Assembly (NCBI GenBank): GCA_016841205.1
Contig: JAENZP010000004.1
Coordinates: 1-64,000 of the forward strand
Length of the DNA stretch: 64,000 nucleotides
From: Desulfoscipio geothermicus
GTDB taxonomy: Bacteria; Bacillota; Desulfotomaculia; Desulfotomaculales; Desulfallaceae
Direction: 5' to 3'
Shown here: positions 38,986-56,175 of the stretch, piece by piece
How positions within the stretch are numbered: position 1 is the stretch's first letter
How the letters are laid out: each line of letters opens with the position of its first letter
Translations under genes and position numbers: made by a program
The notes under the pieces: model-generated
Told to the model about the DNA's origin: nothing
Database searches by the model: none
Seen by the model: the letters and a program-made list of their open reading frames with translations, nothing else

Positions 38986-39708
38986 TTGAGTATATTTGCC
39001 ATTGCAGATTTGCACTTATCTTTTTCAGGTTTCTTGAACGTGGTAAACTGGGAAGAGAACCGGGAGTATAAGCCCATGGGAGATTTGGACCAAACTTGGC
39101 ATAATCATGCCCGCAGGATTTATGAAAATTGGCACTGGGTGGTTCAAGATTGTGATATAGTGCTGGTGCCTGGGGATATATCCTGGGCTATGCGGCTTGA
39201 TGATGCCCGCCCGGATTTAAATTACCTGGGATTGTTACCAGGACGCTTGGTTTGTGTCCAGGGCAACCACGATTACTGGTGGCAGAGCATTTCCCGGGTC
39301 AGGGAAGCGGTGCCCTCTAACGTGCAATTAATTCAAAACGATCATGTTAAACTGGATGGCGTTAATATTTGTGGCACTCGGGGTTGGCTTTGCCCCAATG
39401 GCGCTTATTTTAAAAAAGAAGACGAAAAAATTTATCGCCGGGAATTAATCCGGTTGGAGAATTCATTGCAAAGCGCTAAAACAGGGCCAAGATTGGTGAT
39501 GATGCATTATATGCCTACCAATGAAAAACACGATTACTCCGGTTTTATAGAACTGTTTCAAAAATATGAGGTGGAAACTGTAGTATACGGTCATATACAT
39601 TCAAATGCCTGCCGTTACAGGTTGCCCAACCAGGCCTGGGGTATAGATTTTTATTTAACCAGCGCTGATTATCTTAACTTTACGCCCCGGTTAATTATTG
39701 AGTGTTAG
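38986..39708 (+). CDS. Calcineurin-like metallophosphoesterase
   Basis: 240 residues with the ordered metal motifs of the superfamily: D-x-H in IADLHLSF, GD in LVPGDISWAMR, GNHD in VQGNHDYWW, a single H in MMHYMP, and GHIH in VYGHIHSNA. The family is like the YpgA/ykuE-type predicted phosphohydrolases; the substrate is unknown. TTG start behind GGAGGA. Its stop overlaps the stop of the convergent minus-strand gene by a few bases. Confidence 0.9.
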   Translation: MSIFAIADLHLSFSGFLNVVNWEENREYKPMGDLDQTWHNHARRIYENWHWVVQDCDIVLVPGDISWAMRLDDARPDLNYLGLLPGRLVCVQGNHDYWWQSISRVREAVPSNVQLIQNDHVKLDGVNICGTRGWLCPNGAYFKKEDEKIYRRELIRLENSLQSAKTGPRLVMMHYMPTNEKHDYSGFIELFQKYEVETVVYGHIHSNACRYRLPNQAWGIDFYLTSADYLNFTPRLIIEC

Positions 39709-40544
39709 GCATCATCTTTAAGATGAATAAAACAGTTCGGGTGGCCAAAAATAAATTCCTTGTCCCTGTGGGCGTGTAATGCCTTGGTTCCGGTAGGAAC
39801 TTCCTGCTCGCAAACTCTGCAGGGGAGAGTTTCCCTGGCCGGTAAAATTACACCATGCAGCACTTCACCCCGCCAGTAAATGTGCGCTTGCTGTAGCTTA
39901 TTTTTTTGCGGTTTGACCGGTGAACAAGCGGGGTGGTAATAATGACACTTTTTTTTGCCAAAATCCCTAAAGCGATACTGAACTATGGGGCTGTAAGGCA
40001 ATATTTTTTTGCGGCAACGGGAACAGGTGCGGGTGCCGCCGGCATTGCCCTTTAGTATATAGCGAAGGCTGGCCGGTTTACACCGTACTTTTATATCTTT
40101 TACATATTGGGTACGGGCGGGGTCTTCTTTGATCCAGGCATCAACTTGCCGGTAATAATCCCGGTAATTGCGTTCTTCAAGCCGAATTTCTGCTGGAAAG
40201 CCAGCTGATATAATTTGTTGTTGAAAAGTATGCTCGGCTACTTCATGGGCCAGGCCGTCCATTTTGGCGGTTTCCCAGTGGTAGCCGTTTTCGGTGAGCC
40301 ATTTATGCAACCCGAAAAAAATATTACCGGAACAGACGTACAGGTAGTCATCTTGTTTGACACCCGCTTGTTGCATCATTTCCAGTACCTTCTGGCGGGC
40401 CATTTCTTCCAGGCTCAGTTTATTGTCCCAGGTTAACGGTAAAAAACTTTGATATATGAGCCGGGGGTTTTCGCAGACCAGCACTAGCACTTCAGAGAAT
40501 GATCTGCAGCCGCCCCCTGCGTCTTCAATATACCATTGCAACAT
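39705..40544 (-). CDS. Hypothetical protein with two C-terminal Cys/His zinc sites
   Basis: 279 residues. The N-terminal 150 show no known domain. The C-terminal part has two zinc-finger-like clusters: CSRCRKK with CHYYHPAC, and CRVCEQ with a HAH and HPNC. The pattern is reminiscent of PARP-type or LIM-like fingers that bind nucleic acid or protein, but this is only a resemblance. ATG behind GGGAGG at about 12 nt. It meets the phosphoesterase gene tail to tail. Confidence 0.65.
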   Translation of the reverse strand: MLQWYIEDAGGGCRSFSEVLVLVCENPRLIYQSFLPLTWDNKLSLEEMARQKVLEMMQQAGVKQDDYLYVCSGNIFFGLHKWLTENGYHWETAKMDGLAHEVAEHTFQQQIISAGFPAEIRLEERNYRDYYRQVDAWIKEDPARTQYVKDIKVRCKPASLRYILKGNAGGTRTCSRCRKKILPYSPIVQYRFRDFGKKKCHYYHPACSPVKPQKNKLQQAHIYWRGEVLHGVILPARETLPCRVCEQEVPTGTKALHAHRDKEFIFGHPNCFIHLKDDA

Positions 40545-43884: not shown

Positions 43885-46119
43885 ATGCACCATAGGGTTA
43901 AAATTCATTACGACAACAAAAACGGTTTCTTAGAGCCGATTATGTGGGTGTGGGTAAGTGACGGGGCTACTCTGGAAAGGGAAGTAGCTCCCAGCGGCAG
44001 TGATGATTTTGGGGTTTATTATAACCTGTCTTATAACCGCAGCAGTTTTAACTTTATATTTAAGGATGGCCAAGGGGAAGACGTTCCATGGGAAGAGGAT
44101 AAATTTAATAGATCATTTCATGCGCATCTGGGTGAAGAAATCTGGTCCATGGCGGACAGGCATAATATTTATAATGTTCGTCCGGCATCTCCCGTGGGTA
44201 ATATAAAGGATTATTACCGTCAAATCAGCCATCTTGTTCCAAAAGAAAATTTTTATTTTCCCGACACCGACGTTTCCGGTCTTGGTATGATCTCAATGCT
44301 GGGAGCTAATACTCTGGCTGACGGGACTGTAGTTTTCGGCTTTTTTCATCCTCGCGCGGCAAGGGTCTACCTGGTTGGGAATTTTAACGACTGGCAGTGT
44401 CCCGCTCATCCTTTACCGCAGCCGGATAAATTTATTCCTATGGATCTCTATCAGGGTTTCTACTATCAACCCAATATTTGGCTGGCAAAAATTAGTCCTG
44501 AAACAAATTCTCCCATTGAGTATAAGTTCTATATACAGGGCGGCACCCTTGCAAGTGAACGATATGTAACAGATCCTTATACTCGGCTGTTTAGCGATGA
44601 TTATAAATATCGCAATGCTGTGGTGGTAGATCCGACAAAGTTTAAGTGGACCGATCAGGACTGGAGAACTCCGGATATTAAGGACTTGATTCTTTATGAA
44701 TTAAATGTATACGGTTTTACTGATAACGATCCCGAAATACGCGAAGATATGCAGGGAACATTTAAGGGGGTTGCCCGCCGTATCAAGGACGGCTATTTTG
44801 ATAAGCTGGGTATAACCGCGTTGGCACTGATGCCTACGGCTGAAGTGCCGATGAAGAAAGGACTTGGTTATGAGCCATGCACCTTCATGGCCGTGGAAAA
44901 GGACTTTGGTACCCCTGATGATTTTAGGGAAATGATTAATGAAGCACACCGGCACGGTCTTGCCGTACTTATGGACCAGGTTTTTAATCATACCTCGAAC
45001 GATTTTAACCCTTTATGGAACCTTATTGACGATGGTTCAGGTGATGGCGGTTTTTATTTCGCGGGTAAAACAATGTGGGGGAATAAAGTAGGTACGGGAA
45101 AAGACGAAGTGGATAATATGCTCATTGATTCTTGTAAACTGTTTATTAAGGAATATCATATTGACGGTTTTCGATTTGACGCTACCCACAGCTATTTTTT
45201 AAACCATAAATTGTTGCACCGGTTGGCCCACGAAATTAAGGGTAAGGGATTTAAATCCGATACCATTTTGATTGCCGAAAATTTACCTAATGAAAAAGAC
45301 CTAAACATAGAAGGATATAACGGCTATGCCCAGTGGTCCAACCTTTTCCACGATAAAGTAAAGGCTTTGCTGCGCGAAGGAGTATTCGAGGGGGTAGGCA
45401 ATGGAACGGATAACCTGGGAAGCATGATTTATTTCAGCAAAGATAGATTTGCGGCCCATACCAACAATGTTATCAATTATTGCGAAAGCCATGACGAAAA
45501 CAGCGTTCAGTTTGAGGTGGCCACCGGCGGGGAACACTTACAGGATCCAAAAGTTAAGGAAAGAAAAGCTCGCCTTGGGTTAATGACTACCATGGTAGCC
45601 CTGGGGCAGCCAATGATCTACATGGGGCAGGAGTATGGCGTCGAGAGGGAAAGAAATAGGATTAAAGTAAGGTGGAGTACGTATTCCGAGGATACCAGTA
45701 AATTTTATCAGTGGGCGAGTGCACTGATTAACCTTAGAAAAAGGTACGAGGCGCTAAAGCTCAGCGGTTATAATCCCATCGATGATGGTAAATTTAACTG
45801 GCTGGTGGGGCCCTGGATGAGCGATAACAAGGGCGGCAAAAAAAGAGTTATTGGGTGGAAAACAAATAGCGGTAGTTCTCCATCTGAACAATTGCTGGTC
45901 ATGCTTAACTTTGAAGGGCATGATGTTCCCGTAGATATTCATTTCGACCCGGGGCGGTGGATTAAATTAGGCGACATTGAACATATTAACGACCTCCCGC
46001 CTGTTGGTAACAAGGACCCATATGACGCAGACAGCATTAATATTAGCGATAACGTGCCGACGCAGCACTTTGTGCTACCTCCTTACAGCGGATTTATTTA
46101 TAAATACCAACAGGCCTGA
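43885..46119 (+). CDS. GH13 alpha-amylase family enzyme with starch-binding-like N terminus
   Basis: 744 residues from ATG 43885, which has GGGAGG 5 nt upstream. The first 90 residues look like a CBM25/26-type starch-binding module (VKIHYDNKNGFLEPIMWVWV). A CBM48/E-set-like domain follows (FFHPRAARVYLVGNFNDWQ). The TIM barrel has nucleophile D432 (GFRFDATHSY), acid E465 (LIAENLP) and D537 (ESHDENS). No signal peptide is seen, so it is probably cytoplasmic. Layout resembles pullulanase- or branching-type GH13 enzymes; exact specificity is open. It starts the alpha-glucan island and is followed 78 nt later by a GH57 gene. Confidence 0.9.
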   Translation: MHHRVKIHYDNKNGFLEPIMWVWVSDGATLEREVAPSGSDDFGVYYNLSYNRSSFNFIFKDGQGEDVPWEEDKFNRSFHAHLGEEIWSMADRHNIYNVRPASPVGNIKDYYRQISHLVPKENFYFPDTDVSGLGMISMLGANTLADGTVVFGFFHPRAARVYLVGNFNDWQCPAHPLPQPDKFIPMDLYQGFYYQPNIWLAKISPETNSPIEYKFYIQGGTLASERYVTDPYTRLFSDDYKYRNAVVVDPTKFKWTDQDWRTPDIKDLILYELNVYGFTDNDPEIREDMQGTFKGVARRIKDGYFDKLGITALALMPTAEVPMKKGLGYEPCTFMAVEKDFGTPDDFREMINEAHRHGLAVLMDQVFNHTSNDFNPLWNLIDDGSGDGGFYFAGKTMWGNKVGTGKDEVDNMLIDSCKLFIKEYHIDGFRFDATHSYFLNHKLLHRLAHEIKGKGFKSDTILIAENLPNEKDLNIEGYNGYAQWSNLFHDKVKALLREGVFEGVGNGTDNLGSMIYFSKDRFAAHTNNVINYCESHDENSVQFEVATGGEHLQDPKVKERKARLGLMTTMVALGQPMIYMGQEYGVERERNRIKVRWSTYSEDTSKFYQWASALINLRKRYEALKLSGYNPIDDGKFNWLVGPWMSDNKGGKKRVIGWKTNSGSSPSEQLLVMLNFEGHDVPVDIHFDPGRWIKLGDIEHINDLPPVGNKDPYDADSINISDNVPTQHFVLPPYSGFIYKYQQA

Positions 46120-46197
46120 ACTAGCCCGCCCTTTGCTTTACTCAGGAAGTGACACCCCGGCGGAGGAGTTATTAATTTGTCAGCGGAGGTGACCAAA

Positions 46198-48195
46198 ATG
46201 AAAAATGTATTCGTAATAATGGCTTTTCATGCCCATGAACTGCTTTGGGATCTGCCCGAAACCTTATTAACGTACCTTGATAAAAAAAATCCCATGAAAG
46301 AATCCTTTTTGGACGAGAATTATCTTAAGAAAAGGAAAAAAGAGGGGCGTGATATCTACTCTCTATGCAGCATACTGGGGGAAAATCTTGGCGCGCCCAT
46401 GTGCGTGGAGTATACCAATGAGCTTTTGGTTCAGGTTAAAGACGTAATGCCACAGGTATTTGACAGGCTTAAAGATGATTACAGCAAGGGACGACTGTAC
46501 CCGATATACGGTCATGCCCATCATTCTCATGTTTCACTGCTGCGTTCTGAAGAAATCACCCAGGAAATTGTTTGGAACAGGCAGTATCTGCACAACTATA
46601 TGGAGGTGCCTTATCCCAAGTATAACGGACTGTTTCCTCCGGAAGACTCTCTGGTTTACGAAAAAATGGAAGCAATAGAAAAAGCAAATGTTGATTATGT
46701 CATATTCCCACATCTTGACGAAAACAAGGTCCCATATGAAATTTTGGGTGAAGGGGATTACGTTTATAAACCTTTTTTAATTCGTACCACCCGGAAAAAC
46801 ATTATTGCTCTACCCCGCAATTTTCCTATATCCCAGGAGATTTGGCGACCAATTACCAAAATGAAAAGGGATGATGTAAAATCTCAAGGGTACATGCTGG
46901 GTGACTTTCCCGTATTTGATAATGAATATCTATACGGTGAGCAGGAGGAGTACCCCATCGACATGGATACGGGTGTGGGCATTTATAAGAAAGTCCTGCT
47001 TCGTGAATTGGATAAGGCTCCTGAAAATGGTTTGCTGCTGTATGTTCAAGATCTTGAGTTGATGGATTTTGGTGATATTGCCCTGGAAATAATCGAGAAA
47101 GCCTGGCAAGAAATACTTGCCGAATACAGTGACAAGTACAAGGTGCATTTTGTTACTCCTGACCATTATATCGATGAGGTGCTGGCTCACGAAGGGCTTG
47201 ATAAACTTCCTGAAATTAAGTTTGACCGGATCACCTGGGCGCCGGAAATAAGACTCATACTGCGGGCTGACGGACAATATCCTCCCCTGGGGGTTACCGG
47301 TGTTGGAGGTTATGATACGCATAAAACAGGGATATATGAGCACCCACATGTTTTCTGGGAAAACGGTAAATATTTTTGTGGTATATTTGATACTTTACTG
47401 GAAAACATGGGTATATACACTAATATTCCGATTAACGTGGAACGGTTAGCTGAAACCGGGTATGATCTGGCCAGGAAAAGCCCCGATAGCCAGGCGATAC
47501 TATACCTGCGCTTGATGAAAAGGGCATGCAATTGGGGCTGGAGGCCGACGGAGGGAAGGCAAAAGCGTCCATGTCTGCTTGGGTACTTGCTGGTTGATAT
47601 TTTGCTGGGCAGATTGCAGAAATCCCCATCTCATTTGACATTAAGCCGGCAGTATAAAATGATCAATCCCCGCAACTTTGTGGGACTTTGTGAAACTCTT
47701 AAAGTTTTTATCGACAATCGCCTTAACTATCTGCGATACGGCCTGGATCAGTACGCTAAGGAAAAAGAGAGGGATTTGCGGGCGGCCTATGCCTTGTTCG
47801 AACCTGTTGAGCAATGGAAGGCGGTGGCAGTGGCCAAAGCCGGGGAGATGTTTGTCGTCAACCGGCGGGGTCCGGCTGAATTGCAAAATTTTTTAAAGCT
47901 GTTGCAGGAATATGTGCAGGGTGTATACATGGCCACGGATTATATACAGGCAATATGGACCGAAAGCCCGGATGCCGAATATCTTGTGGATAAAATGTAT
48001 CATTATCTGTATAATATTTATCCCCCTATGTTCCCATCCATGATTGAAAAGATCGATGCCATGAGCGAGCAGGATGTGGAAGAATACTTTAACTTCATTG
48101 AGCAACCGCAAAACCATAGACACCGGGTAGAAATGAGTGTGCCTGTTCATCAGGATCAGCAAGCGAATGAACATGAAACCCTTTTTACACAATAA
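46198..48195 (+). CDS. Glycoside hydrolase family 57 protein
   Basis: 665 residues from ATG 46198 behind GGAGGTGA. The N-terminal domain begins FVIMAFHAHELLWDLPET, which recalls the first conserved GH57 region, and YGHAHHSHVSLL and a later FPHLDEN/DGQYPPLG region fit the family. GH57 enzymes include amylopullulanases, 4-alpha-glucanotransferases and branching enzymes. I could not confidently assign the catalytic Glu and Asp. Co-location with GH13, TreZ and TreT suggests a role in alpha-glucan processing. Confidence 0.8.
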   Translation: MKNVFVIMAFHAHELLWDLPETLLTYLDKKNPMKESFLDENYLKKRKKEGRDIYSLCSILGENLGAPMCVEYTNELLVQVKDVMPQVFDRLKDDYSKGRLYPIYGHAHHSHVSLLRSEEITQEIVWNRQYLHNYMEVPYPKYNGLFPPEDSLVYEKMEAIEKANVDYVIFPHLDENKVPYEILGEGDYVYKPFLIRTTRKNIIALPRNFPISQEIWRPITKMKRDDVKSQGYMLGDFPVFDNEYLYGEQEEYPIDMDTGVGIYKKVLLRELDKAPENGLLLYVQDLELMDFGDIALEIIEKAWQEILAEYSDKYKVHFVTPDHYIDEVLAHEGLDKLPEIKFDRITWAPEIRLILRADGQYPPLGVTGVGGYDTHKTGIYEHPHVFWENGKYFCGIFDTLLENMGIYTNIPINVERLAETGYDLARKSPDSQAILYLRLMKRACNWGWRPTEGRQKRPCLLGYLLVDILLGRLQKSPSHLTLSRQYKMINPRNFVGLCETLKVFIDNRLNYLRYGLDQYAKEKERDLRAAYALFEPVEQWKAVAVAKAGEMFVVNRRGPAELQNFLKLLQEYVQGVYMATDYIQAIWTESPDAEYLVDKMYHYLYNIYPPMFPSMIEKIDAMSEQDVEEYFNFIEQPQNHRHRVEMSVPVHQDQQANEHETLFTQ

Positions 48196-48379
48196 TTTAG
48201 TATCTCTGATAAACCGTTGGAAAATTTCCCAAATCTTTTTCTGCGTAACGGTGAAAAGGGGATACTCCTCTGTTGAGGCGTGTCTCCTCACCTTATTTGT
48301 CTACTATCATAAAACACTCGTGGCCGGACTTAAATATAGCCATCTTAGACCGGCGCTTAGCGACTGCTAAAAAACAATG

Positions 48380-50185
48380 TTAAATGCCGTTCCGTTTATC
48401 TTCCAATATGATCATTTGTCCTTTTCGTAAAATACCTTCTTCGGCTTCATCGCTCCCGCCGTAAGACGCCCTCTGGGAATTGAATATTTCCTTGCCTTGA
48501 ACATCCTTTATAACAATATCAGTTGAACCAAGATTAAACAAACCAATTAATACTATATGCCGGTTCCACCGAGTTATTTTGACTACCTTGTTTTTTTTAT
48601 CCACTTTCACTTTTAATTTGTTTTTATCCAAGTTTTTCAAAACTGGGTGGGAAGTTCTCAAGCTGATTAGATCCTTGTAGAAGTTAAACAGCATTTGGTG
48701 TTGATTTTCCCACCGGCTGCGGGGAGTTAGCCTGGAAGTATAAAAGGTTAGCGGGTCCTGGGGGTCCGGCACGTTTTCCCAGCTAAACTTGGCAAATTCT
48801 TTTTTTCTGCCCCGGGATACAGCCTCTTGTAAAGCGGGGTCCTGGTAATCCGTAAAAAATAAAAAAGGATTTTTTTCACCATATTCTTCCCCCATGAAAA
48901 TCATAGGCAAGTAGGCTGAAAAAAACATCAAACCGGCGGCGGTCTTTAAATAATTTAATTCCAACAGTGTTGAGAGCCTGTCTCCTCTGGCCCTGTTGCC
49001 CACCTGGTCATGGTTTTGTATAGCCACTAAAAACTGTTGGCCGGGATTGCGGGAACCGTCTGTTCCCCGTGCCTTCCCCCAGTATTTTGAATATTCACCG
49101 GTATATAAATAATTTTTATATACTTTTTCCAAATCTTTTATGCGACCGTAATCCATGTAATACCCTTCCCGCTCTCCTGTTAGCACAGTATGGATACAAT
49201 GATGAAAATCATCCATCCATTGGCAATCCATGCCTAAGCCGCCTTTATCCAGGGGAGTAATGAGACGGGCATTATTTTCATCACTTTCAGCGATAATAAA
49301 TTTTCCCCGGTTTTGCTTGCCGGCAGAGTTTTTAGCAACCAGGCTTATTTCCTGGAGAATATGGATCGGACTGAAGTCTTTAATGGCATGAACGGCATCC
49401 AGTCTTAACCCGTCAAAATGGTAAACCTCCAGCCAGTACCGGACATTATCCAAAACCATTTTCCTGGTCTGCTCGTTATACAGGTCGTCGAAATTTACGG
49501 CCTTTCCCCATGGTGTTTCGTGCTTACTCGTGAAATAGGGGCCGTAAACCGGCAAATAATTACCTTCCGGACCGAAATGGTTATAAACAACGTCCAGAAT
49601 CACCGCCAGGTTTTTTTGGTGACAGCGGTCCACCAGGTGTTTTAAATTATCAGGGGTGCCGTAATTGTGATTCACGCTGAAAAGGTTTACCCCGTCATAA
49701 CCCCAGTTCCACCTGCCGGGAGTCTGGGTCACGGGCATCAGCTCGATGGCGTTAACCCCCAATTCTACAAGATAGTCCAGTTTTTCTGCAACGCCGTCAA
49801 AAGTACCGGTATCTGAAAATGTGCCTACATGAATTTCAATGATCACCAGTTTTTCGATAGCTCTGCCCGGCCAGTGGTCATCTTGCCACCGGTAGGTTTC
49901 ATGGTCGACCAGCTTGGAAAAACCATGCACACCGAAGGGTTGAAAGTTAGCATAAGGATCGGGGTATTCTTTATCACCGTCTAATTTAAACTTGTACAAA
50001 AGGTCTAAACCTATACCCTCGATGATGGTGCTGTAGACATAAGGCATTTCTTCAATCATGGGAAACACGGTTTTTTTATCGCCCGACTTTACAACCACGG
50101 AAACCTCCTGCCTATCGAGGGCAAAAACTTTGAAAGATACTATACTTTTTTCACTGTTTATAATATTTGCGCCCATTTTGAACAT
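48380..50185 (-). CDS. treZ: Malto-oligosyltrehalose trehalohydrolase
   Basis: 601 residues of GH13. After an N-terminal E-set domain (about 1-95), the barrel begins with IEIHVGTFSDTGTFDGVAEKL. The nucleophile is D263 (GLRLDAVHAI), the acid lies in FIIAESDE, and the late motif QNHDQVGNRARGDRL is characteristic of TreZ. The enzyme releases trehalose from malto-oligosyltrehalose. TreY, which makes that substrate, is not in the window. It is transcribed away from treT, sharing an 84-nt upstream region. Confidence 0.9.
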   Translation of the reverse strand: MFKMGANIINSEKSIVSFKVFALDRQEVSVVVKSGDKKTVFPMIEEMPYVYSTIIEGIGLDLLYKFKLDGDKEYPDPYANFQPFGVHGFSKLVDHETYRWQDDHWPGRAIEKLVIIEIHVGTFSDTGTFDGVAEKLDYLVELGVNAIELMPVTQTPGRWNWGYDGVNLFSVNHNYGTPDNLKHLVDRCHQKNLAVILDVVYNHFGPEGNYLPVYGPYFTSKHETPWGKAVNFDDLYNEQTRKMVLDNVRYWLEVYHFDGLRLDAVHAIKDFSPIHILQEISLVAKNSAGKQNRGKFIIAESDENNARLITPLDKGGLGMDCQWMDDFHHCIHTVLTGEREGYYMDYGRIKDLEKVYKNYLYTGEYSKYWGKARGTDGSRNPGQQFLVAIQNHDQVGNRARGDRLSTLLELNYLKTAAGLMFFSAYLPMIFMGEEYGEKNPFLFFTDYQDPALQEAVSRGRKKEFAKFSWENVPDPQDPLTFYTSRLTPRSRWENQHQMLFNFYKDLISLRTSHPVLKNLDKNKLKVKVDKKNKVVKITRWNRHIVLIGLFNLGSTDIVIKDVQGKEIFNSQRASYGGSDEAEEGILRKGQMIILEDKRNGI

Positions 50186-50269
50186 AGTATATATAGCCCC
50201 TTGTTTATTTTTTCAAAAATAAGTATATCCGTATTAGGTAATAAAAATTATTTTAAAGAGGTTATGCCC

Positions 50270-51514
50270 ATGGAATTTGTAACAACCGCCTTAAAAAAAT
50301 ACGAAGATTATTTGAAAATAATTAACATAGACACCAAGGCGCAACTGGATTATTTCGTAAATAAAATGCAAGGAAAAAAGATAGCTATGGTAAATGCCAC
50401 GTCATTTGGTGGGGGGGTAGCCGAAATACTTCATTCCATGGTGCCACTGGCCCGGGATATGGGGTTAAACATGGATTGGTGGGTAATTAAAGGTGCCGAC
50501 GAATTTTACAATGTAACCAAGACATTTCATAATTGCCTGCAGGGAGAGGAAGGGGCTCTTAGTCCGGAGGATGAGAAAATATATCTTAAATATAATGAAT
50601 TAAACGCTGCAGCTGTTGAGGAATGGGATTATGACTTTATTATCATTCACGATCCTCAGCCGGCGGCATTAATAGAGTTTATGGCATCAAAAACAAAGGA
50701 GAGTGCCAAGTGGGTTTGGCGCTGTCATATTGATACCTCAACTCCCAATCCCGATTACTGGCGTTTTTTGTATAAGTACATTAAACAATACGATGCTTGT
50801 ATTTTTACAATGGAGGAATTTGTCCATGAAAAAGAGAGGCTTCAAAACCTTACCTTCATTACTCCGTCAATAGATCCCTTAAGTACCAAAAATATAGAAT
50901 TAGATGTAGAAGATGCCAAGCAGATAATCGCCCGATTTGGGGTTGACATCCATAGACCGCTAATTACTCAAATTTCGCGGTTTGATCCGTGGAAGGATCC
51001 ATTGGGTGTTATTGACACATACAAAATAGTAAAAAAAGAATATCCCAGCGTTCAACTGGCCCTAGTGGGTTCCATGGCTTCGGATGACCCTGAAGGCTGG
51101 GGTTACCTGTACCGAACTTTGAGGCGGGCCGGTGAGGATTACGACATCAAAGTTATAACAAATTTTAACGGTGTGTCTAACAGGGAAGTCAACGCTTTCC
51201 AAACTGCTTCTGATGTTATACTTCAAAAATCCCTCCGGGAAGGTTTTGGACTGACTGTTTCCGAGGGAATGTGGAAGGGTACACCCGTTATCGGGGGTAA
51301 TGTAGGTGGTATAAAATACCAAATCATAGACGGTATTACCGGATATCTGGTAGACACCGTGGAGGAATGTGCCGAAAAAGTATTGAAATTGCTGAGAAAC
51401 CCCACCCTGGCCCAGGAAATGATAGAAGCGGGCAAGGAAAGGGTTCGCCGGCATTTTTTAATAACTACCCATCTTTTAAATTACTTAAAACTATTGGACA
51501 AGCTGGACGGCTAA
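50270..51514 (+). CDS. treT: Trehalose glycosyltransferring synthase (TreT-like, GT4)
   Basis: 414 residues from ATG 50270, with AAAGAGG 8 nt upstream. It is a GT-B glycosyltransferase of family GT4: an N-terminal domain with VNATSFGGGVAEILHSMVP (the typical TreT opening), WRCHIDTSTPNPDYWRF, and a C-terminal nucleotide-sugar domain with ITQISRFDPWKDPLGVID and SLREGFGLTVSEGMWKG (the ExFGLxxxE motif). TreT makes trehalose reversibly from NDP-glucose and glucose. Its pairing with TreZ supports trehalose metabolism. Sucrose-type relatives are a less likely alternative. Confidence 0.85.
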   Translation: MEFVTTALKKYEDYLKIINIDTKAQLDYFVNKMQGKKIAMVNATSFGGGVAEILHSMVPLARDMGLNMDWWVIKGADEFYNVTKTFHNCLQGEEGALSPEDEKIYLKYNELNAAAVEEWDYDFIIIHDPQPAALIEFMASKTKESAKWVWRCHIDTSTPNPDYWRFLYKYIKQYDACIFTMEEFVHEKERLQNLTFITPSIDPLSTKNIELDVEDAKQIIARFGVDIHRPLITQISRFDPWKDPLGVIDTYKIVKKEYPSVQLALVGSMASDDPEGWGYLYRTLRRAGEDYDIKVITNFNGVSNREVNAFQTASDVILQKSLREGFGLTVSEGMWKGTPVIGGNVGGIKYQIIDGITGYLVDTVEECAEKVLKLLRNPTLAQEMIEAGKERVRRHFLITTHLLNYLKLLDKLDG

Positions 51515-51566
51515 GTGGGGAGTTAATTTAACTCATAGCCTATCGGACGAGGTAGCTCATTGTGCA

Positions 51567-52676
51567 TTATGGTCGTAATAGCCTGGCTACGGAAAATGGG
51601 TCTGAACTTATAACGCTGGTAGCAAACAACTCCATAGCACCGAAATCGGTCGTGCGGTTAAACACATTACCGCGGTCCACCAGACGGGCCAGTATAGGAA
51701 ATTCTTTCCAACCGACGGCGTCCGCTTCCATTTCTAGAGGTGGAAGGTAAACCGCTACGTTAAAACTTTGTATGGGGGTTTGTTGTTTTAGACGGTTTAG
51801 CACGCGACATACCGCCCTGCCAACCAGCCCGAGTTTATCAAAGGTTACAGGACCCAAGGGAGGAAATATCCAAACTTCTTTTTCCTTTATAGGGGTAAGT
51901 AAAGATAGCAGGCGGAATTCGTCTTCAGCCCAACTTAATCCCAATGCTTTGTGTAGGACATATAGATCCTGGAAGTAATTACTGCTATAGTTATATGCAT
52001 ACCGGAGACTACATTGCCGCAGCTGTTCAACCTTTGGATAATGGCGTTTCGGGGTCACGGTCACCTGAAGATGTCCATGCACTACGGAAGAACCGGCAGG
52101 CCAAAGGCAGTTCCACATTAGAAAGGGGTAAAGTGTTGCAGTGCTGTCACCCTCTGAGGCTGCGTAAACGTTTACCTCATGGAACCAACGGGCCGCCACC
52201 TGGAAATAATCCTCCACCATATCCTCGTCGAACCGTAGCGGATGATGCTCCCGGGGTATGATTAAGCTGTGATAACCGTCATATTTGGTCAGATTGGCCG
52301 CTGTAAGGCAGTATTTTCCCCGGATGCGCCCGAAACTATCTTCGGGGGTGCGGTCTTCCGGTGAGCAAAAAGGGCAGCCCTGCCGGTGTTCCTCCACCAG
52401 GGAATCCAGGTCCCTGCTGGGAAAGCGTGTCATAGGGCGCTTGCTGCGAAGACTATTAAATAGTGCTCCTTCTCCGGTTATTAAATTGGTTACCCGTATA
52501 ATTTTATGATCTTCCACTTCCGACACGCTTCCAAACTTTTCTTCAACCCAACTGCGGATACCTGAAACTAATCTAAGTTTGCTTTGCAACACATTAACTT
52601 CATAAATTCTATTCCACAGTGTATTTTCCCAAAATGGTAGTTCTTCCGCCAACCGAGGTAGTTCTAAAATAGACAC
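51567..52676 (-). CDS. GalT-like nucleotidyltransferase (HIT superfamily)
   Basis: 369 residues. CPFCSPEDRTPE is the zinc-type motif near residue 108, and GSSVVHGHLQV is the active-site histidine segment, in place of HPHxQ in classical GalT. RPMTRFPSRD and IIPREHHPLRF are further GalT-like segments. The family transfers UMP or AMP between sugar phosphates (GalT) or phosphorolyses nucleotide sugars. Beside TreT it could supply or use NDP-glucose. It runs convergent to treT. Substrate is inferred from context, not motif. Confidence 0.8.
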   Translation of the reverse strand: MSILELPRLAEELPFWENTLWNRIYEVNVLQSKLRLVSGIRSWVEEKFGSVSEVEDHKIIRVTNLITGEGALFNSLRSKRPMTRFPSRDLDSLVEEHRQGCPFCSPEDRTPEDSFGRIRGKYCLTAANLTKYDGYHSLIIPREHHPLRFDEDMVEDYFQVAARWFHEVNVYAASEGDSTATLYPFLMWNCLWPAGSSVVHGHLQVTVTPKRHYPKVEQLRQCSLRYAYNYSSNYFQDLYVLHKALGLSWAEDEFRLLSLLTPIKEKEVWIFPPLGPVTFDKLGLVGRAVCRVLNRLKQQTPIQSFNVAVYLPPLEMEADAVGWKEFPILARLVDRGNVFNRTTDFGAMELFATSVISSDPFSVARLLRP

Positions 52677-55356: not shown

Positions 55357-56175
55357 TTAAATCTCGTTAAGATTGGCTATAGCCAACTTCAGGGTATCCG
55401 CCCGCAGGCCTACGCGGAGGGCTTCTACGGCTAGAACCTCCTGGGCCGGGATATTACCCAGGTTCACGTCCGAACCAAATCGGGTAATCAGGTCCTGCTG
55501 TTGATTTTTAAGCGGGGCTTCCCAGATAATTAGAGCTGGGTTGCCTATATAATCCATAAATACTTGTAAATCGTCATCTGCTATTTTGCCCTTGGCATCG
55601 TAAAGTCCTACATTTAGACCGCTTTCCCTGCCCTCCAGGATAACCTTGTAAGCACCGTTTTGCAAATCACGTAGGGCCATTTGGGCTAGTGTTTTTACAG
55701 GTACTTCAGCGCTGTTAATTTTTTTACCCACCTCAGTCAATACCCTGAAGCCCATTTCGGCTGCCAATCTGATAGTTTGTTCTCTCACCTCCCCGCTCAA
55801 GTGTATTGTCCCATCGCTAACTTCAATGGTCGTAAAACCCAAGGAATGGCATGTATCGAGAAACTCCCTTATTTTATTTTGTATTATGGCAACTTCCAAG
55901 AAGGTGCCCCCCGGGTAGATGTCAACGTTATAAGAACGCACTAGCTGTATTTTTTCTTCTAGAGTGCCTGCAGCATAAAGCATGGAGGTGCCAAACCCCA
56001 GCTTGATAAAATCAATGTGCTGATAATTGATTTGTAGCAAGTCGCGGGTTTCTCCTATACCCATGCCTTTGTCGATTACCATGGTCAGACCCTTGTTCCT
56101 AGGTTTGGCCGTCCGCTCGCCCAGCGGGTAGGATATTACCTCCCGCCAGAAATTGTTTTGTGCATATTCAGACAA
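55357..56175 (-). CDS. comA: Phosphosulfolactate synthase (ComA family)
   Basis: 272 residues of a TIM-barrel family. GLTMVIDKGMGIGETRDLL, HIDFIKLGFGTSML and YPGGTFLEVAIIQNK are the typical early motifs, and VILEGRESG is the later one. The enzyme condenses sulfite with phosphoenolpyruvate to phosphosulfolactate, used for coenzyme M in methanogens and for sulfolactate in Bacillus spores (YitD). comB and comC are not seen nearby, so the later steps must be elsewhere. It sits alone on the minus strand. Confidence 0.9.
   Translation of the reverse strand: MSEYAQNNFWREVISYPLGERTAKPRNKGLTMVIDKGMGIGETRDLLQINYQHIDFIKLGFGTSMLYAAGTLEEKIQLVRSYNVDIYPGGTFLEVAIIQNKIREFLDTCHSLGFTTIEVSDGTIHLSGEVREQTIRLAAEMGFRVLTEVGKKINSAEVPVKTLAQMALRDLQNGAYKVILEGRESGLNVGLYDAKGKIADDDLQVFMDYIGNPALIIWEAPLKNQQQDLITRFGSDVNLGNIPAQEVLAVEALRVGLRADTLKLAIANLNEI

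Follow-up and report, generated by a model that had tools for sequence, protein, structure and literature searches.

The window analysed here is a stretch of 64,000 nucleotides from Desulfoscipio geothermicus (assembly GCA_016841205.1, contig JAENZP010000004.1, positions 1 to 64,000), which carries an island of five carbohydrate genes at 43885-52676, encoding, in order, a protein of glycoside hydrolase family 13 (GH13, + strand), a GH57-like protein (+), hereafter GH57L, the maltooligosyltrehalose trehalohydrolase TreZ (-), the trehalose synthase TreT (+) and a GalT-like protein (-). Based on its distribution among genomes, we consider it probable, at roughly 0.6, that GH57L is a non-orthologous maltooligosyltrehalose synthase, namely a GH57 enzyme performing a step that has been described for just the GH13 enzyme TreY. 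With slightly less confidence, GH57L is suggested to be the first non-GH13 enzyme of this kind, belonging to a GH57 clade that replaces TreY beside TreZ in diverse Firmicutes (as judged from record titles), and its distant relatives may mark a route from glucan to trehalose in which both steps are carried out by GH57 enzymes.

As sequence assignments, the identities of TreZ and TreT are secure. TreZ scores 660.5 bits on the NCBIfam model TIGR02402 (cut-off 538.8) and matches the glycosyltrehalose trehalohydrolase 1eh9 at E=1.2e-140, while TreT matches the solved TreT of P. horikoshii at E=1.2e-141 and reaches 193.6 bits on PF21269 (cut-off 27), with PF00534 as a second Pfam match. The initial annotation had noted that TreY is missing from the window, and this absence extends to the whole genome (G000; 3.38 Mb, 99.94% complete). 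The TreY profile TIGR02401 recovered from it just the window TreZ and the island GH13 as weak cross-matches (47.9 and 31.4 bits against a cut-off of 498.65), and PF00128 likewise found only these two GH13 proteins and no TreY. That a TreY was overlooked is unsupported: among the nine genomes searched with PF00128, the known TreY proteins of G022 and G017 were recovered (three proteins in each genome, TreY included), while G000 yielded nothing beyond its two proteins and G111 a single one, TreZ. Neither profile search thus found a complete treY outside the window, which the initial annotation had named as evidence against a new step.

Across 113 genomes of the same class, GH57L is present in seven, which represent three genera in three families, TreZ passes its cut-off in 41, and TreY occurs in 36 (35 over cut-off). 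The 41 TreZ genomes comprise 33 with TreY only, seven with GH57L only, none with both and one with neither (G048, in which a contig end cuts TreZ), giving a Fisher p of 3.6e-7, uncorrected for kinship. TreZ over cut-off was not found in three TreY genomes of this set (G071, G086 and G087).

A second set was obtained by scanning 84,980 species genomes with a seven-sequence GH57L alignment, which led to 52 loci, 42 of them in a main clade (53-92% identity) and 10 in a distant clade (38-41%). Four main-clade loci (L094, L095, L096 and L108) correspond to genomes already in the class set (G020, G025, G111 and G019) and were left out, so that 38 further genomes remained. TreZ over cut-off was detected in 35 of these and TreY in one (G134); for the 45 main-clade genomes combined, the counts are 42 and one, respectively. 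As completeness is not given for the outside genomes, the absence of TreY from any single one is weak evidence, but the pattern across the 38 is not weak. The distributions of GH57L and TreY are complementary. According to record titles, the hosts of GH57L include Desulfoscipio, Peptococcaceae, Dethiobacter, Syntrophomonadaceae, Thermacetogenium, Candidatus Frackibacter, Halanaerobiales, two metagenome-assembled genomes titled Desulfovibrio and many metagenome-assembled genomes of Bacillota. Gene arrangement is also conserved: treZ lies on the strand opposite to GH57L in all 33 main-clade loci having both and within two genes of it in 29 of the 42, while six of the nine loci without treZ have at most one open reading frame after GH57L.

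The most telling single case is G017, which carries a TreZ of the same clade with TreY in place of GH57L. In a tree of 59 TreZ sequences (35 of 42 GH57L-linked proteins over cut-off, the one of G017, and 23 of 32 other TreY-linked ones; L109 was dropped as short), the 35 GH57L-linked TreZ and that of G017 form one clade with a support of 1.0, the complementary group of 23 TreY-linked TreZ having 0.71. The genome of G017 keeps GH13, TreZ, TreT and the GalT-like gene together without GH57L, the gap between treZ and the GH13 gene being 23 bases where GH57L sits in most others, and a full TreY is encoded some 7.6 kb past GH13 on the contig that carries these genes. Three GH13 catalytic-motif residues are 100% conserved in both TreZ clades. 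Tree distances of TreZ and GH57L are correlated in 34 genomes (r=0.76, reached by none of 2000 permutations), but this is no higher than the correlation between TreZ and TreT (r=0.81 in the 29 genomes having TreZ, GH57L and TreT) and therefore shows common inheritance only, nothing specific.

The initial annotation had described five carbohydrate genes lying together, and all five open reading frames are present at their places, with the two codons proposed for GH57 catalysis in GH57L:

43885..46119, + strand: GH13 protein with PUD, CBM48 and alpha-amylase domains; gggagg precedes ATG 43885
46198..48195, + strand: GH57-like protein (GH57L); first ATG 46198 after ggaggtg, the listed open reading frame opening at TTG 46177
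46642..46644, + strand: Glu codon of GLFPPE (residue 151 in alignment A2), putative catalytic nucleophile of the GH57 type (codon position checked)
47050..47052, + strand: Asp codon of QDLELMDFG (residue 287 in A2), putative proton donor (codon position checked)
48380..50185, - strand: TreZ, maltooligosyltrehalose trehalohydrolase of the GH57L-linked clade (TIGR02402)
50270..51514, + strand: TreT, trehalose synthase (glycosyltransferase family GT4), divergent from treZ; ATG 50270 after aaagagg
51567..52676, - strand: GalT-like protein with CxxC and an invariant HGHLQ, proposed nucleoside diphosphate (NDP)-glucose phosphorylase partner of TreT

The start codons of GH57L and TreT were chosen by the ribosome-binding-like sequence ahead of them. 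Since GH13, GH57L, TreZ and TreT recur as a group in genomes of other families, the island is not a chance assembly. All five genes occur together in G019, G020 and G021, and also in G024, where a few genes separate the GalT-like one from the rest, all four genomes belonging to the genus of the window. Promoter-like and terminator-like sites in the island are no more numerous than in shuffled sequences.

The GH57 label given by the initial annotation finds no direct Pfam match for the window protein, and is upheld by distant relatives and by fold. GH57L has no Pfam or NCBIfam match at E<=0.01, and PF03065 matches neither the window protein nor the other main-clade protein scanned (L121) at E<=10, while the three distant-clade proteins scanned (38-40% identity) pass its gathering score of 21.2 (L142, 35.5; L139, 27.9; L144, 29.1). 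Searches against sequences of the Protein Data Bank, with the single sequence and with a profile, gave chance matches only, and membership was therefore judged from the fold and the distant relatives. Compared with a canonical GH57 profile, the GH57L profile matches with a probability of 62.6% (E=7e-5), and the alignment pairs the conserved Glu (E151) with the Glu of GH57. The structure model of GH57L (predicted local distance difference test score, pLDDT, 90.7; predicted template modelling score 0.90; an earlier seven-sequence model with a pLDDT of 57.5 was poor and was set aside) has the incomplete barrel and helical bundle of GH57. Its best structural matches are GH57 enzymes, namely amylopullulanase (Z 24.4; best row with a root-mean-square deviation of 3.1 over 336 aligned residues), the 4-alpha-glucanotransferase of T. 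litoralis (Z 23.3) and branching enzyme (Z 20.5). As GH57-type rows extend down to Z 17.3, with deacetylases up to 19.1 and GH38 up to 16.1, the fold by itself does not fix the family of GH57L.

E151 and D287 are invariant in all 50 sequences of alignment A2, which contains the window protein and 49 of the 52 loci (L122, with a stop codon in the span, and the partial L125 and L128 were left out), and D287 ends strand 280-287 of the model. According to passages of a GH57 survey (PMC6037648), the family uses a Glu nucleophile on strand 4 and an Asp proton donor on strand 7 in a retaining mechanism, and includes transglycosylases; such a mechanism suits transglucosylation. GH57L would share with the known GH57 enzymes (4-alpha-glucanotransferase, amylopullulanase and branching enzyme) its fold, relatives passing PF03065 and the invariant Glu and Asp, while differing from them in the missing PF03065 match and in its tie to TreZ. 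It resembles the GH13 TreY in its genomic role as the partner of TreZ where TreY is absent, but differs in being a GH57 protein with two invariant carboxylates.

According to the route proposed here, GH57L would act on a linear maltodextrin as TreY does, exchanging the alpha-1,4 bond at its reducing end for an alpha,alpha-1,1 bond by intramolecular transglucosylation with Glu151 as the nucleophile and Asp287 as the acid/base, and TreZ would then release trehalose. TreT would interconvert trehalose and NDP with NDP-glucose and glucose. For the GalT-like protein, the probable reaction is the interconversion of NDP-glucose and phosphate with glucose-1-phosphate and NDP. Trehalose might thereby enter or leave the glucose-1-phosphate pool, in whichever direction the flux would run.

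Several observations weigh against GH57L being a maltooligosyltrehalose synthase. G134 (locus L119) carries GH57L, TreZ and TreY, the first two on one contig and TreY on another. Because the GH57L-linked TreZ form a single clade, the pattern rests on few independent events followed by long retention, namely one main origin, one genome with TreY instead of GH57L (G017) and one with both (G134). Foldseek gives the GH57 rows low TM-scores (template modelling; 0.34-0.41 by query length), and folds of GH38 mannosidase and deacetylase match too. TreZ over cut-off is lacking, together with TreY, from nine of the ten distant-clade genomes. Moreover, of the 225 columns conserved in TreY-linked TreZ, 53 differ in consensus in the TreZ clade linked to GH57L, which also fits a TreZ whose substrate has changed. 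Finally, treZ and treY flank a gene of about 810 codons for a GH57 protein with a DUF3536 domain (GH57-DUF3536) in each TreY-type operon examined at length, three in all (L087:9001-11430, + strand; L091:7040-9466, - strand; L093:9726-12149, - strand; domains were scanned for L087 and the homologs in L091 and L093 found by tblastn), so that GH57L might replace that enzyme and not TreY. The nearest precedent, described in passages of PMC11206854, is a DUF3536-type GH57 protein of Pontibacter (PoGH57), whose locus also has TreZ and TreY and which was reported to be a 4-alpha-glucanotransferase with hydrolytic action.

These points feed the main rival, an ordinary glucanotransferase role. GH57L would then be a usual GH57 amylase, amylopullulanase or 4-alpha-glucanotransferase shaping dextrins, perhaps the counterpart of GH57-DUF3536, and TreZ would obtain its substrate from an unrecognised enzyme or act on a changed one. 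The best structural matches of GH57L, amylopullulanases and 4-alpha-glucanotransferase lying about 1 Z apart, agree with it, as does the precedent from Pontibacter, and GH57-DUF3536 was found in no main-clade GH57L locus examined, a result that covers the loci and no genome-wide search. However, such a role leaves the TreY step without an enzyme in 44 of the 45 main-clade genomes, and G017, with the same TreZ clade, TreY and no GH57L, unexplained; moreover, no GH57-DUF3536 gene was found near the TreY of G017 (L086, 19 kb around). GH57L and GH57-DUF3536 are each encoded by a GH57 gene in a TreZ locus, but the latter occurs with TreY, carries DUF3536 and shows no similarity to GH57L beyond chance (L087 protein; best blastp E 0.17). 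We regard the ordinary role as unlikely, although among the alternatives for the TreY step it has the most weight.

Alternatively, TreT was considered as the replacement of TreY, in which case it would glucosylate the reducing end of maltodextrin to form maltooligosyltrehalose that is cut by TreZ. TreT is indeed present in 28 of the 42 main-clade GH57L loci, often divergent from treZ, but TreY genomes often have it as well (56 of the 113 class genomes carry TreT), and hence it does not swap with TreY. In addition, locus L097 has GH57L, TreZ and several open reading frames after TreZ without TreT, a finding for the locus, as outside-class genomes were not searched whole for it. Such a role for TreT is improbable.

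The island GH13 is the least probable source of the TreZ substrate, and very unlikely to be it: it belongs to the same GH13 family as TreY and lies directly upstream of GH57L in 20 of the 42 main-clade loci, but in a search covering 79 genomes, made up of the 41 with TreZ from the class and the 38 main-clade ones from outside it, GH13 coexists with TreY in six (G086, which has TreY and GH13 too, falls outside this set), and it is lacking from 21 of the 45 main-clade GH57L genomes. One of the latter is G111, listed as 100% complete, where GH57L is present and TreZ is the sole PF00128 match. As TreZ is thus the only recognisable GH13 protein there, its substrate in G111 should come from an enzyme outside GH13. 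Accordingly, GH13 as a TreY substitute was rejected. The initial annotation had supposed that either the GH13 or the GH57 protein makes the TreZ substrate; genome distribution favours the latter half of this supposition, and the TreY genomes and GH57L genomes just mentioned speak against the former.

The GH13 protein does carry a carbohydrate-binding module, as had been annotated, since Pfam detects CBM48 beside PUD and alpha-amylase domains. It passes no NCBIfam cut-off among the matches listed (25 of 34), its best model being TreZ at 173 bits against a cut-off of 539. Present in 24 of the 45 main-clade genomes (once as a fragment), it is possibly a debranching or dextrin-trimming enzyme.

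As for glucan supply, the genome of the window carries, outside the island, genes with the potential for glucan synthesis and phosphorolysis, for which the initial annotation had suggested searching. Contig 32 (L166:8553-11342) carries a gene for a 930-residue fusion of a GH57 branching enzyme (PF03065 and BE_C) with a group 1 or starch-synthase-type glycosyltransferase (PF00534 and PF08323), located between two phosphorylase genes, while contig 13 (L168:5963-8509) encodes a fusion of nucleotidyltransferase, hexapeptide and phosphoglucomutase parts beside a GlgA-like glycosyltransferase. The system is similar to the TreY-TreZ (TreX-TreY-TreZ) pathway in having TreZ over its curated cut-off, a GH13 partner gene, and glucan and phosphorylase genes in the genome, and is unlike it in that TreY is absent and a GH57-fold protein adjoins TreZ instead.

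The island TreT is close to that of Thermococcales and Thermoproteus, as judged from its match to the P. horikoshii enzyme, but sits with TreZ and scores 522.5 bits against a Thermococcales cut-off of 775. The GalT-like protein has no Pfam or NCBIfam match at E<=0.01. Its orthologs (at least 48% identity) were found in 17 of the 113 class genomes, all 17 of which have TreT (hypergeometric p=1.5e-6, uncorrected), and the link of the GalT-like gene to TreT is real. The gene lies beside the island TreT in five of the 17 genomes and beside a TreT of 37-40% identity in four others, in one of which (L046) it is clustered with OtsA, OtsB and a GDE-type gene (Pfam); it adjoins GH13 in two and neither TreT nor GH13 in six, including G024, where TreT is a few genes away, and G111, where it lies at a contig edge. 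The replacement of HPH by HGH, pointed out in the initial annotation, is genuine: HGHLQ and CxxC are invariant in all 16 aligned orthologs (the seventeenth, of G013, is cut by a contig end and was left out), while the five GalT-type paralogs with the motif visible have HPH.

On these grounds the GalT-like protein may be an NDP-glucose phosphorylase serving TreT, an assignment held less firmly than the one for GH57L. Such an enzyme would join the NDP-glucose of TreT to glucose-1-phosphate without ATP, and ADP-glucose phosphorylase is what we take to be the fitting comparison for it. Another tentative possibility, which carries considerable weight short of preference, is that the protein has no part in trehalose metabolism and acts as a plain galactose-1-phosphate uridylyltransferase or as an enzyme of dinucleoside polyphosphates. 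Its CxxC and HxHxQ motifs and its 27-36% identity to the GalT-type paralogs, HxHxQ being found in both, are what such an enzyme would show, and the genomes where it adjoins neither TreT nor GH13 agree with this. Moreover, it is found in only two of the 42 main-clade GH57L loci, L094 (G020) and L108 (G019), both of the genus of the window, and for G025 no more than a weak match to a paralog was obtained; it is therefore outside the core defined by GH57L. What speaks against such a plain enzyme is the presence of TreT in every one of the 17 genomes, compared with 56 of 113 overall, the neighbourhood of two different kinds of TreT, and the invariant HGH.

The distant clade of GH57L may represent another trehalose-linked enzyme or an ordinary one. 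The gene directly before GH57L aligns in one GH57-type family in six of its ten loci (L136, L137, L140, L141, L142 and L144); five of these short genes are 51-92% identical to that of L136, and those scanned, of L136 and L142, match PF03065. Two of the loci are near other trehalose genes: L142 has TreT and GH57-DUF3536 upstream, while L144 has GH57-DUF3536 upstream and an OtsA-OtsB fusion downstream.

According to passages of a Chemical Reviews article (PMC11046441), TreY starts the release of trehalose from glucan, and TreX, TreY and TreZ are all GH13 enzymes. Trehalose formation is not among the activities listed in passages of the survey of 1602 GH57 sequences (PMC6037648), whose main text nowhere uses the word trehalose. 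The absence of TreY is noted in passages of PMC6513891, but TreZ is absent there too. By titles and abstract openings of the openly licensed PMC literature searched, no report was found that ties GH57 to maltooligosyltrehalose formation, nor is such formation by GH57 described in the passages of PMC11046441, PMC6513891, PMC6037648, PMC11206854, PMC5352709, PMC6133358, PMC5146329 and PMC2694162. If GH57L is indeed a maltooligosyltrehalose synthase, it would mean that an unusual intramolecular transglucosylation has evolved convergently, give GH57 a specificity that is not listed in the survey of PMC6037648, and explain dozens of genomes that seem to carry an orphan TreZ. As well, it could offer another enzyme for the industrial production of trehalose, which in its mainstream form uses TreY- and TreZ-type enzymes, as stated in PMC10451709. 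The proposed swap between GH57L and TreY can be checked in a single test-tube reaction.

Apart from the island, two further genes of the window were noted. Positions 39705-40544 (- strand) encode a protein of 279 residues with several cysteine pairs, which has no Pfam or NCBIfam match at E<=0.01 and is 93% identical in L108. Near the island, at 55357-56175 (- strand), lies a gene for phosphosulfolactate synthase (arch_ComA, 345.8 bits, cut-off 280).

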